NCBI RefSeq assembly: GCF_021917145.1
Contig: NC_061062.1
Span: 3,801,466-3,865,465, forward strand
Reading direction: 5' to 3'
DNA: 64,000 nt
Source of the DNA: Hypomesus transpacificus
Taxonomy: Eukaryota; Chordata; Actinopteri; Osmeriformes; Osmeridae
The position numbers and the translations under genes are program-made. Under the pieces are notes generated by a model, which made no database searches, was not told the DNA's origin, and saw only the letters and a program-made list of their open reading frames with translations. Positions within the stretch are counted from its first letter, which is position 1. Every line of letters begins with the position of its first letter. Shown one piece after another: positions 1-6,000 of the stretch.

Positions 1-3000
1 TGTGTTGGTGCCCAAAGGCTCATCAGACAACGCTGAGAGAGACAGCAGTACTGAGCAGGCAGAGAGGGAAACTGAAATCACCGACAGTGAGCAAGCCTCC
101 GTCCCCAGTCATGAGAAGGGCACAGGGACCAGTGAGACCAGCCAGGCTGGAGTACCATCAGGTATCTCTGAAGATACACGTGAACCTTCCCCCAGCGAAC
201 CACCAGGTGGGTCCTCTTGGATTGGCTCCCCGGTCACAGACTGGCTGGGGTTTAGTGGTGGGGAAGATGGAGCAGGAGGTATAGGAGTAGTAGATGGAGT
301 AGGAGAACAGCCCAAAGAGTTCTTCAGGAAAAGGAAATTGTCCATAGATTTAGAGGAGAACCATCTGCAGGTGGAGACCAAGACCACGGTATTCGGCTGG
401 CTGGGGGAGGGGTTGACCAGTACCCTAGGGTTGGGTGGAGCTGCCCCTGAACCGGCTGTATCAGGAAGTGAGACTGAGATCAAAGAAGAAAAACCCACAC
501 AGTCCAGCTCTTGGTTGGACATGGGCATCAATGTTCTAGGGTTCGGGCAGAGCAATGAGGATAAAGAGAGAGGGCCAGTGGATGAAGACATGAAGAAGAA
601 TCACGATCCGTCTGGAACAGCAGGGTCAAGAGAGCCATCTAGTGTTCAACCTAGTCAGCCTCACAGCACTGAAGGGGAAGATCAGATAGGCCTACAGGCT
701 CGTCAGGCCCTGGAAGAAACCTTAACTGACAGTCAGGTCAGGCAAGATAAAGATGAAAACTGGTACGGAAGCATCTATAACAACATTGCAAGTCTATATG
801 GAAACACGCCTGAGGTCGATAATGAACCGGAGGCTACAATTAGGGAAACAGCAGATCATGAGTCCATAGAAAGAGAGGCCGCAGAAAGAGAAGCTGGAGA
901 AATAAAGGGCGTCAAACAAGACGACACAGAAAAGGAGGCTGCTGAAAGAGAGGCCGCAAAACGAGAGGCGGCAGAAAAAAAGGCTGCAGAAAGTGTGGCC
1001 GTAGAGAGGGAGGCCGCAGAGAGGGAGGCTGCAGAGAGGGAGGCTGCAAAACAAAAGGCAGCAGAACGAGATGCTGCAGACAGAGAAGCTGCAGAGAGGG
1101 ATGTTGTAGAGAAGGAGGCTGCAGTGAGAGAGGCTACAAAAAAAGAGGCTGTAGTCAGAGAAGCTGCAGAACATGAGGCCACAGAAAGGGAGGCTGCAGA
1201 AAAGAAGGCTGCAGAGAGGGAGGCCTCAGAAAGGGAGGCTCCAGAAAGAGAGACCACAGAAAAGGAGGCTGTAGAAAGGGAGGCTGCAGAAAGAGAGGCT
1301 GCAGAAATGGAGGCTGCAGAAACAGAGGCCACAAAAAGAAAGGTCACAGAAAGAGAGGCTGCAGAAAGAGAGGCCGCCGAAAGAGAGACCACAGAAAGAA
1401 AGGCGGCAGAAAGAGAGGCAGCAGAAAGGGAGGCTACAGAAAGAGAGGCTGTGAAACGAGAGGCTGCAGAAAAAGAGGCTGCAAAACAAGAGGCTGCAGA
1501 AAGAGAGGCTGCAGAAAGGGAGGCCGCGAAACGAGAGGCTGCTGAAAGGGAGGCTGCAGAAAAAGAGGCTGCAGAAAGAGAGGCCACGAAACGAGAGGCT
1601 GCTGAAAGGGAGGCTGCAGAAAAAGAGGCTGCAGAAAGAAAGGCTGCAGAAAGAGAGGCTGTAGAAAGAGAGGCTAAAGAAAGAGAGGCTGCAGAAAGAG
1701 AGGCAGCAGAAAGAGAGGCAGCAGAAAGGGAGGCTACAGAAAGAGAGGCTGTGAAACGAGAGGCTGCAGAAAAAGAGGCTGCAAAACAAGAGGCTGCAGA
1801 AAGAGAGGCTGCGAAACGAGAGGCTGCTGAAAGGGAGGCTGGAGAAAGAGAGGCTGCAGAAAGAGAGGCAGCAGAAAGAGAGTCAGCAGAAAGGGAGGCT
1901 ACAGAAAGAGAGGCCGTGAAACGAGAGGCTGCAGAAAAAGAGGCTGCAAAACAAGAGGCTGCAGAAAGGGAGGCTGCAGAAAGAGAGGCTGCGAAACGAG
2001 AGGCTGCTGAAAGGGAGGCTGCAGAAAGAGAGGCTGCAGAAAGAGAGGCAGCAGAAAGGGAGGTTACAGAAAGAGAGGCCGCGAAACGAGAGGCTGCAGA
2101 AAGAGAGGCTGCAGAAAGAGAGGCAGCAGAAAGGGAGGCTACAGAAAGAGAGGCCACGAAACGAGAGGCTGCAGAAAGGGAGGCTGCTGAAAGAGAGGCT
2201 GCGAAACAAGAGGCTGCTGAACGGGAAGCTGCAGAAAGAGAGGCTGCAGAAAGAGAGGCTGCAGAAAGAGAGGCAGCGAAACGAGAAGCTGAAGAAAGAG
2301 AGGCCGCAAAACAGGAGGCTGCAGAAAGAGAGGCCGCAAAACAAGAGGCTGCAAGAAGGGAGGCTGCAGAAAGAGAGGCTGCAGAAAGAGAGGAAGCGAA
2401 ACGAGAAGTTGCAGAAAGAGAGGCCGCAAAACAGGAGGCTGCAGAAAGAGAGGCCGCAAAACAAGATGTTGCAAAAAGGGAAGCTGCAGAAAGAGAGGCC
2501 GCAGAAAGAGAGGCCGCAAAACGAGAGGCTGCAGAAAGAGAGGCCGCAAAACGAGAGGCTGCAGAAAGAGAGGCCGCAAAACGAGAGGCTGCAGAAAGAG
2601 AGGCCGCAAAACGACAAGCTGCAGAAAGAGAGGCCGCAAAACTACACGCTGCAGAAAGAGAGGCCGCAAAACGAGAGGCTGCAGAAAAAGAAGCTGCAGA
2701 GAGAGAGGTCGCAGAGAGGGAGGCCGCAGGAAGAGAGGCTGCGAAACGAGAGGCTGCAGAAAAGGAGGCGGCAAAAAGAGTGGCCGCAGAAAGAGAGGCA
2801 GCAGAAAGAGAGGCCGAAAAACGAGAGGCTGAAGAAAGAGAGGCCGCAAAACGAGAGGCTGCAGAAAGGGAGGCCGCAAAAAGAGCGGCCGCAGAAACAG
2901 AGGCAGCCAAAAGAGAGGCCGCAAAAAGAGAAGTTGCAGAAAGAGAGGCTGCAGAGAAGGAGGCTACAAAACAAGAGGCAGCAGAAAAGGACGCTGTAGA

Positions 3001-6000
3001 AAGAGAGGCCGCAGGATTAGAGGGAGCAAAAGAAGAGGCAGCTGAAACAGAGGCTTCAGGTGGAGATGGGGACAGTGAAGGAACTCTGGGTTTCTTTGGA
3101 AAAGCCTTAAGTTATTTCACTCCAAGTTCCACAACACAAGACTCAAGACAACAGGTTGAGGATGAGGTGGAGGAACAGCCAGGTGTGCCACTTGAAGTAA
3201 ACCATACTCATCACCTCCCACCGCAAGCAGATACTGAGGACCACCCTGTTAAAGCTCCAGCTCTGCTGAGGCAATACAAAACCCTCCAAGAGTATGTGAC
3301 TGCAGAGGAGATCAACACACTGTTGGAAATGCTTGGGAAACCCAAACTCCAGTGGCTTGACTACAGGCTGGGCAGCTCAGGGGATCCAAATGAAGACGTA
3401 AGTAACGACCTGTCGATCATGTCGGACCTGGAGTTGCTCCTGCAGCAGCACATGGAGAGTCTGAGTGTGCCTCGACAGACAGCACGTGGATCCAGCGAAG
3501 ACACAGACGAGGCGAGGAAACACTCAGCTCTTCGAAAACTAGACACCCTGGTGTTAACCCTAAAAAACAGATTAAACTCATCTGTCAATGTTAAAGAGAA
3601 TCCAGGTACTGTGGTTTTGGAGGTTGCTTTTCCTGCCATGGGCTTTGATTAGATTGGATCTGTTGTTCAGTGCAAAACATGATAATTACACATGATTTTA
3701 TGATGTGGGTATTTTTTAAGTGGGTACTTAAGATGCCAGGTCACTCCTATAAATGATATGAAAGTGACCTGATGAAAGACAATATAACACTGCAAATGTT
3801 TCATCCTCAAATACTTATCATATTTATTTTTTTATCTTAGGAAGAACCGAGGATCTGGGTTATGTGCTGTCTTTTGTGCTTGACATTCTTGCTGTTGGAC
3901 TTTCTCACACTCTGACGGCGGTGGTTCTCCTGAAACAGCTCATTGTTCAGGTAGGAAAAAGATCATGTAAGCTTAGTCAAACAGAACACGGTTTACCATA
4001 CGCTGCCACTTCAGCCTCTATGGCAAACAATATGTTTGCTCAAATGACCGGCAAGTCAAGTTGCTATTTCATTCACAGGTCCTTTAGACGTGTCATTTTG
4101 TTCTAGAAGGTTCTATACACCTCACCATTTGAGTTGGTGGTCTTCTGCAACAAGAAAAAGCTACCTAAGTCAAGATGAGCCCAATAGACTAGTCCTTCTA
4201 GAGAGTGAACACTGTTTTGGAATGAAACACACCCTAAGTCTCTGACATTTCAGCTGTGCCTCAGACTTCCCTCAAGCGTCACTTATTCACGTTCCTTTGG
4301 GCTGGTCTGTGACTGGAAATTATGCAAGCTTGCTGTACTGTGTGACAGAGAAGGCCTATAATGTGTTAGAACGACTTGTTAGTTCTTAAAATGAATTTAA
4401 ATGAAGTCGATCAGGTGAGTGTTAGGGATTTAGGAGGGCATAACTGGTGAAAATAGAAAGTTCGAGCAACTTGGCTTTAAGAGCAGGTGACTGTCGTTAA
4501 GTGAACACTGAAAGGGGACACCTTTGGTCTGTTTGTTCACGATATTTCTGACAATATTTAAGAAAAGTACAGATTATAAATTAATTGTGTAACTTTCACT
4601 TTTTCATGTTGACGTTCATTTACAATACTCATTTATTTGTAATTTATAAGCGGTTAGCGCGTCGGTGTCACTTTAAATTTTGTCAAAGTTGCCAGTGTGG
4701 CATTCTACAATTGGTGACGTTGAAAATGAACCTTCTCACAAGTCATAAATTAATAGGTGTGTTATTGTTTGCAAAACAATTTTGGATTTAATATAACCAC
4801 AAACTCTTCACTCCATATATATATTTTTTGTTAATGTTGTGTACAATTTGATTGAAAACATGCTACTTAATATTTTAGTTAAAAACAATATTTTAAAGAA
4901 TATGATAAAAGTCATAGTTCCCCTTTTCGTGTTCAACATGGTATGACCCTAAACGTCGACTCTGTTGTGAGAATACCGCTAGGTATAGCTTCCAAGTGAC
5001 AGCTGGGCACCTTTCAATGATAACCTAAATAAAGATAAAACTGGAATTAGGCGATTTAGCAATGACAGAACAACCACCAATTATATTGACTGCCGAAGCA
5101 GCCGATTTCCAAACAGCGGCAAGGACGTACTACACACTTGCTGTGGAAAGAGTAAAAGATGTAGGTCGAATTTAGTTTGGACACATCATTCATAACAAGT
5201 CAGCTAGCTAGATTGGCTAGGCTAACTTTTATCAATGTTGGCATTTGTGTAGAACAAACGTGAGATTGTGATAGCTGCTTGCATGGCCATTTTACTTAAC
5301 ACTTACTTGTTGTAAAGACGCATTAAAGCCTGATTTGCAGTTACCTAGCTTTAGTTTGTTAGCTAGCCTAGCTAGAAGATAGCTACACTATGATGCTAAT
5401 GTTTTGTTGCTTGCTAGCTAGCCAGCCTGAAAGTTCCTCCTTTTGACAATTGTGCAAGGATTTGTAAATGAATCATGGCCGGGAAACGTGTTTCTAGTTT
5501 TTAATTGTGTGCCAGTCTGTGTGCAGGGTCTCATTTGTGTCTTTCAACTCCCAAACACATATGGCATCAATGTTCAAATCCTAATGAAGGTAAGCAAGCT
5601 GGTTACCATCAATGATTGACACACCACAATGATGTCCTTTCTGTTTGGTTGACTCATATTTCCAGGTGGTGTCGTCACTCCCTGATGAGATCCGACCAGG
5701 TCCTGATCTCTATGGGGTGCAATGGGAGGCTGTCATTTTCACGGCGCTGATAGGGCTGGCTACCTTCTTAATCTTCACATGCCGGATCTACCAGTCTGTG
5801 AGTAGATTCTAGTACATTACTCAATGTGTACTATTATCGATAGTCTGAGTCTTGGTCTGTTATCATTAGCAGTAGTTTGTTTGCCAGTTGTATAATAGTA
5901 GACGAGTAGTTCTGACATGTAATGTGTCTTTCCGCTGTCTCCACAGTTTAGCAGCAGGTTGGCTGTCCGTAAGTACTGTCACATCACATCAACTGCCAGC

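Follow-up and report, generated by a model that had tools for sequence, protein, structure and literature searches.

A 15-bp minisatellite under protein-level constraint in the giant luminal exon of MIA2/TALI of Hypomesus transpacificus, a candidate luminal spacer

The MIA2/TALI locus and its gene model

We analyzed a 64,000-nucleotide stretch of the Hypomesus transpacificus genome (assembly GCF_021917145.1, contig NC_061062.1, positions 3,801,466 to 3,865,465, forward strand), hereafter called the window, which begins at C3:3801466 in the 437 Mb, 376-contig genome that we searched. Near its start, an in-frame array of 15-bp units lies within a giant exon of a gene which, judged from its parts, is MIA2/TALI. 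The original prediction had named the gene MIA2, and the MOTH domain, membrane segments, cTAGE5-like pieces and F-box neighbor all fit this name. The features of the gene in the window are listed below; the human MIA2, MIA3 and cTAGE5 queries used here and throughout were not database copies.

1..3605, plus strand: giant luminal MIA2 exon, in-window part (exon 4 of the model); acceptor TCAG, donor GTACTG, both joins in phase
212..262, plus strand: aromatic luminal motif 1, SSWIGSPVTDWLGFSGG; found by eye, weak match to human MIA2 (E = 0.42)
383..439, plus strand: aromatic luminal motif 2, TTVFGWLGEGLTSTLGLGG; mostly within the MIA2-aligned stretch 395-616
503..553, plus strand: aromatic luminal motif 3, SSSWLDMGINVLGFGQS; within the MIA2-aligned stretch 395-616
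758..808, plus strand: aromatic luminal motif 4, NWYGSIYNNIASLYGNT, directly ahead of the array; found by eye, no relative matched
869..3058, plus strand: 15-bp in-frame array of 146 units (EREAA/KREAA/EKEAA/KQEAA); from alignment, Tandem Repeats Finder (TRF) and translation
3083..3130, plus strand: aromatic luminal motif 5, TLGFFGKALSYFTPSS, directly behind the array; found by eye, no relative matched
3841..3950, plus strand: exon with the predicted first membrane segment LGYVLSFVLDILAVGLSHTLTAVVLLKQLIVQ; acceptor 11.1, in-phase join, hydrophobic by eye
5062..5160, plus strand: putative cTAGE5-type alternative first exon (MTEQPP...RVKD); ATG, donor 5.6, in frame to 5666
5666..5797, plus strand: first shared exon, with the predicted second membrane segment VVSSLPDEIRPGPDLYGVQWEAVIFTALIGLATFLIFTCRIYQS; tblastn match, in-phase join
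7065..14056, plus strand: further cTAGE5-like cytosolic pieces, coiled coil and then proline-rich; tblastn with human cTAGE5

The 10 kb upstream of the window (L002) contain a start exon and two MOTH-domain exons. The giant exon itself starts there, 140 bases before window base 1, for a total of 3745 bp, or 1555 bp once the array is subtracted; frame +2 stays open from window base 1 as far as 3652, and the donor at 3605 scores 4.1 on a simple matrix. Joining the start exon, the MOTH exons, the giant exon, 3841-3950 and 5666-5797 gave a model of 1439 residues with no stop, in which the array occupies residues 447-1176 and the first membrane segment begins at 1364. Hence, 730 of the 1363 residues ahead of that segment belong to the array. 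This model has five Tali-specific exons against the six reported for medaka (PMC12702677), and one exon may have been overlooked.

The MOTH part matched TANGO1 (PDB 7r3m, E = 2.5e-27) and Pfam SH3_2 (1.5e-10), and was 59% identical to human MIA2 across 46 aa. The start exon, a candidate signal peptide that looks hydrophobic, reached 39% over 38 aa, and the luminal stretch 395-616 aligned with human MIA2 at E = 6.7e-5, MIA2 being the sole luminal comparison. In tblastn searches, the coil exon matched MIA2 at 41% vs 24% for MIA3, and the pieces at 10641 and 10919 were matched by MIA2 and not by MIA3. The second membrane exon was non-discriminating (45% to both), and the proline-rich piece at 13380 scored higher with MIA3. 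On balance, the cytosolic pieces appear closer to MIA2 than to MIA3. The luminal match, the neighboring genes, and the C-terminal ending and CTAGE-family resemblance likewise favor MIA2 over MIA3. Because the MOTH domain precedes the array on its N-terminal side and the membrane segments follow it, the array should face the lumen of the endoplasmic reticulum (ER), in agreement with the topology originally predicted.

An in-register array of 146 units

The array covers 2190 bp and was read from start to end without stops or indels, none of its 146 units lying outside the register. The repeat is therefore real, and slightly longer than the 142 or so in-register units (about 710 residues) first described, with a start 6 bp later; the absence of stops and the position between two MIA2 segments, here MIA2-like luminal sequence and the membrane exons, were borne out. 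This unit count rests on one assembly. Cyclic alignment to the consensus required 324 substitutions and no gaps, and TRF reported a row at 868-3059 with a 30-bp period, a score of 2216 and 3% indels in its own alignment. EREAA was the most frequent pentad (53 units), followed by KREAA (18), EKEAA (9) and KQEAA (8), among 48 distinct pentads encoded by 80 distinct DNA units. Units 3 and 4 (899-928) are strongly degenerate with the register intact, and a block of six units at 1409 recurs identically at 1709. The 730 residues comprise 34% Ala, 32% Glu, 15% Arg and 9% Lys, with one Pro, six Gly, no Trp, Phe, Tyr or Cys, and a net charge of -67.

An open frame in such DNA deserves caution. The antisense strand over the array is also open (751 aa), as are other genomic arrays at length, so that openness alone is weak proof of coding. 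For alignment controls, we hand-picked ten window arrays from 60 overlapping TRF rows, namely the coding one and nine taken as non-coding, of which the array at 26010-26143 sits in an open frame. Gaps were likewise absent from four of the nine, each of which had 4-6 substitutions; 57349-57600, which had diverged most, showed 41 substitutions and one gap, and all nine together had 110 substitutions and 20 gap events, compared with 324 and none for the coding array. One of the nine, a GA-rich minisatellite in an intron of MIA2 (9110-9916), contrasts with the coding array, showing 27 substitutions and 15 gap events (over 9182-9908). Since other arrays can also be gapless or open, we dropped openness and absence of indels as proof of coding and relied on a frame-by-frame comparison.

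The genome holds comparable material elsewhere. A search with 100 array residues returned at least 116 matches (150 of 1870 candidates being scored), 11 of them inside the array. The best outside match reached 54 bits with three stops within it; the query scored 121 bits against itself, and the rest of the array 35-73. Five outside places, hand-picked from the matches to this pentad query, which favors 15-bp arrays, were read, and each proved to be a tandem array for which TRF gave a 15-bp row, with 33-189 copies (L028, L026, L025, L024 and L027, on C9, C14, C41, C17 and C10, respectively). Of the three tested, two were in register and comprised no more than 6 and 8 distinct units, and in the third (L028) 130 of 188 units were off the consensus register, though TRF rounds its indels to 0%. 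Long open frames occur in these minisatellites as well (970 aa in L028 and 1319 aa in L026), with no coding evidence, and an RDRLREQER array at 2836-3489 on the minus strand of L003 has an open frame and a charged, helical look and may be non-coding. Given at least five other 15-bp minisatellites in the genome, the raw material is ordinary, and it is its constrained exonic use that is unusual.

Matches of the array to Pfam HC2 (2.7e-35, 122.7 bits, cut-off 40) and to collagen VI alpha 3 in PDB were read as composition and not homology. A tblastn search of 100 array residues against phages and plasmids, in which BLAST masks low complexity, gave no match, and none of the papers listed in literature searches dealt with a repeat in fish MIA2, as judged by titles and the beginnings of abstracts.

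Constraint on the encoded protein

Relative to the two main unit types, substitutions fell 44, 70 and 145 times on codon positions 1, 2 and 3. The ratio of non-synonymous to synonymous change (dN/dS) was 0.22 over all 146 units (0.30 on the left, 0.17 in the middle and 0.24 on the right). For the 80 distinct units, it was 0.25 when read in the coding frame, compared with 0.84, 0.95, 0.68, 0.56 and 0.77 in the other five frames, which contained 12, 12, 5, 0 and 11 stops, in the same order. When substitutions were redistributed, a mean of 6.6 stops was expected in the coding frame, where none was observed (2000 runs; P = 0.002); with distinct units, the mean was 5.5 (5000 redistributions; P = 0.0024), and the observed third-position count was attained in none of the 5000. 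The units thus show constraint at the protein level, acting on codons. Non-synonymous divergence (pN) was 0.23 on the left and 0.16 on the right but 0.11 in the middle, meaning that the outer parts diverge more, as expected for an array growing from inside.

A probably soluble and at least partly helical segment

Pairs from E to K/R at i+4 numbered 116, and those from K/R to E 88, each vs 57 +/- 5 in shuffled sequences, with like-charge pairs at 45 vs 120 +/- 8. The simple alternation of E and R/K originally described was not found: such pairs are enriched at i+4 and depleted at i+3. The period of five residues places i/i+4 ion pairs along a helix and leaves no heptad stripe, as the original prediction had argued. 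Fourier power of hydrophobicity reached 292 at 72 degrees but no more than 0.64 at 92-108 degrees, and the hydrophobic fraction stayed between 0.32 and 0.41 at every position of periods 7 and 11, without the heptad or hendecad stripe of a coiled coil. The longest strict heptad seam of A/V/I/L/M was 3 (5 if loose), compared with 6.9 in shuffles and 28 in a published dimerizing design repeated 14-fold. For a dimerizing Ala coil this seam is too short; on sequence grounds, neither a coiled coil nor an Ala coil is favored.

The helix prediction proposed as a check suggested that the helix may be only partial. In a rough Lifson-Roig model, helix content fell from 62% at 5 °C through 46% (15 °C) and 28% (25 °C) to 14% at 37 °C. 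At 15 °C, shuffled sequences gave 23%, pure EREAA 84% and the array with charge terms removed 9%; scaling the pair energy by 0.5 or 1.5 moved the estimate to 15% or 72%. The charge-pair score, our own equal-weight approximation and not the published matrices, averaged 0.21 for the array, below that of a known single alpha-helix (SAH) domain (0.53 for Myo10). As both estimates fall short, we abandoned the label of canonical SAH for "partly to largely helical". The original preference for a long single helix over a coiled coil thus holds as regards the missing stripe, but the stability of such a helix is not assured. The array is probably soluble and at least partly helical. If helical, its contour length would be 109.5 nm; the roughly 107 nm given earlier as a span is such a contour length, and the root-mean-square span would be about 53 nm at the persistence length of about 15 nm reported for SAHs (PMC5347031). 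ER sheets of mammals are described as about 50 nm wide (PMC7308479), and SAHs as constant-force springs (PMC4183817).

A proposed luminal spacer and its alternatives

With moderate confidence, we favor the explanation that a minisatellite has become a constrained, helical ER-luminal spacer in MIA2/TALI. The 15-bp repeat would have arisen or expanded in the giant luminal exon of teleost mia2 and would since have been retained by protein-level purifying selection. The resulting 730-residue Ala/Glu/Arg/Lys segment would separate the MOTH cargo domain and aromatic motifs from the membrane segments. Most likely soluble, semi-flexible and helical in part or for the most part, it would act as a spacer within the ER lumen and let the cargo-binding end reach tens of nanometers off the membrane at exit sites. 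Indeed, a long soluble segment between a cargo domain and the membrane would most simply be a spacer. The sequence, its frame, the identity of the gene and the codon-level constraint are established, whereas full translation, luminal topology, helix and spacer role are what we infer from the DNA. Several points weigh against this explanation. All evidence is DNA of one individual's assembly. The units are related by duplication and not independent, which makes the redistribution P values guides, and the redistribution null assumes equal mutability at all sites of one base. The two outside arrays of few distinct units (6 and 8) have dN/dS of 0.24-0.27 in one or two frames, so that a value near 0.25 alone is no proof. 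For the helix, E-R/K pairs are depleted at i+3 (42 and 11 vs 57 in shuffles), all opposite pairs at i+3 and i+4 together show a modest excess (257 vs 230 +/- 12), a short seam is what a five-residue period produces in any case and is no separate sign of selection, and modeled helicity is only 46% at 15 °C and 14% at 37 °C. The constraint may also reflect avoidance of harm rather than a spacer function. Finally, because medaka without Tali are reported to be viable (PMC12702677), a vital role for the spacer would not be expected.

The main rival to the spacer is a tolerated passenger, that is, a genomic 15-bp minisatellite in a fast-evolving luminal linker, translated and functionless, from which only frame-breaking or harmful variants are purged. 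Array-like matches elsewhere in the genome, all five of those fetched being 15-bp tandem arrays, are in line with it, as are the 6-bp indel reported in exon 4 of cavefish mia3, an in-frame change tolerated in a luminal linker (PMC6751357), and the 17,800 coding regions with a tandem repeat in 7,372 genes reported for cod (PMC5241972). However, the codon-level constraint peaks in the coding frame and stops are avoided, and we regard a passenger as possible but doubtful. A self-associating scaffold, in which Ala/Arg-rich helices bundle or condense and cluster TALI at exit sites, seems improbable. Ala-rich and Arg-rich de novo helices are reported to have dimerized or aggregated, with an Ala seam proposed for the dimer, although more Arg in the natural Myo6 SAH is described as bringing no aggregation (PMC5347031). 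The array has 34% Ala and more Arg than Lys; its seam is nevertheless far shorter than that of the Ala-rich designs, and its net charge is strongly negative.

We hold it very unlikely that the array is absent from the mature protein, either removed as an exitron or present at this length as an assembly artifact. A donor at 736 scores 7.5, above the 4.1 of the presumed exon end, and acceptors at 3446/3449 (4.3-4.8; simple matrices) would allow removal of 2709 or 2712 bp with the frame kept, and assembly errors are known to arise from tandem repeats (PMC6868369). Yet these acceptors are weak beside the modeled ones (8.5 and 11.1), no acceptor above 3 lies within the array, and constraint in the coding frame speaks against any such absence. 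A role at the DNA or RNA level, such as a purine-rich splicing-enhancer array defining a very long exon, is hardly credible: the coding strand of the array is GA-rich, but variation is greatest at its third codon positions, which ought to count as much as the others in a role of this kind.

Isoforms, neighboring genes and a probable paralogue

MIA2 genes are expected to carry a cTAGE5-type alternative first exon. The putative exon at 5062-5160 sits downstream of the array, and a short cTAGE5-type isoform starting there, if used, would therefore bypass it. In medaka, MIA2 is reported to yield Tali and a shorter cTAGE5, one exon being cTAGE5-specific (PMC12702677).

An F-box open reading frame (ORF) at 22086-22520, which we take to be FBXO33, follows MIA2. 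CTAGE5, MIA2 and FBXO33 are reported as adjacent on human chromosome 14 (PMC5511183, PMC6094450). Reading 20 kb of upstream sequence by eye did not turn up PNN, the other human neighbor. Other neighboring ORFs are presumably PPP2R3C, PRORP, PSMA6, NFKBIA, INSM2 and RALGAPA1, and fit human 14q. Among these neighbors, Pfam supported F-box, PPR, ankyrin and C2H2 zinc finger domains, left proteasome and EF-hand below cut-off, and gave no match for the RALGAPA1-like ORF. A Tc1-type transposase ORF of 358 aa (41177-42250, minus strand) lies between the PSMA6-like and NFKBIA-like genes. Four of five pieces scanned in L002 1419-4700, upstream of MIA2, matched domains in an odd, repeated combination, namely a THAP domain and integrase H2C2 zinc-binding pieces at three separate places.

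A second locus (G000:C6), with a MOTH-like match of 52% containing one stop and a luminal-type open frame of 724 aa, is likely the MIA3 paralogue; the cytosolic query sequences found no tblastn match in the 10 kb covered there. Its luminal exon (L036 2794-2937) carries a small 18-bp repeat (EEPGPE, about six copies), so small repeats occur in the paralogue too. A genome search with the second membrane exon returned only MIA2 itself at E <= 0.001.

Comparison with known systems and implications

The fish gene shares with the long isoform of vertebrate MIA2 (TALI) the MOTH domain, luminal aromatic motifs, two membrane segments, cTAGE5-like cytosolic pieces and the adjoining F-box gene. Human MIA2 is not known to carry such an array, which in the fish makes up more than half of the residues before the first membrane segment. 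Synthetic (EAAAK)n sequences are rigid linkers with which the array shares a five-residue, Ala-rich unit and E to K/R pairing at i+4, whereas the array is natural, 146 units long, Arg-rich and degenerate. SAH (ER/K) domains such as those of Myo10, Myo6 and INCENP likewise combine high charge with few Pro, i/i+4 pair enrichment and no heptad seam, but the array is Ala-rich, scores lower for charge pairs and has 730 residues, compared with 40 to about 200 as reported for typical SAHs (PMC5347031). The luminal spacer of CLIMP-63 resembles it by description, being a long helical stretch of a membrane protein inside the ER lumen; in the fish array the helix is a predicted one. As a single straight helix, the CLIMP-63 segment would measure about 70 nm, and rods of 90 nm are reported from partly denatured material; unlike the fish array, it is a predicted coiled coil and self-associates (PMC7308479). 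The MIA2 array is, in short, an unusual yet understandable variant built of known parts.

TALI is reported to mediate export of ApoB-lipoproteins, and zebrafish mia2 p.E135X likely lies behind a dark-yolk mutant (PMC12273961); the MOTH domain of TALI is reported to bind collagen IV in vitro (PMC10119292). We mention as a long shot that the array could be a length-tunable, temperature-sensitive luminal tether, whose unit number, varying between individuals in five-residue steps, would set the reach of MOTH or the width of the ER lumen during export of large ApoB-lipoproteins. There is no settled account of how TANGO1-family proteins link bulky cargo to exit sites through their luminal half, and luminal spacers of differing length are not easily had except by design. 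A naturally occurring spacer of 730 residues in pentads, whose length may plausibly change by 15 bp at a time, would permit a comparison of alleles. The array is also a case of an exonic minisatellite with protein-level constraint, and a natural, far longer counterpart of synthetic EAAAK-type linkers.

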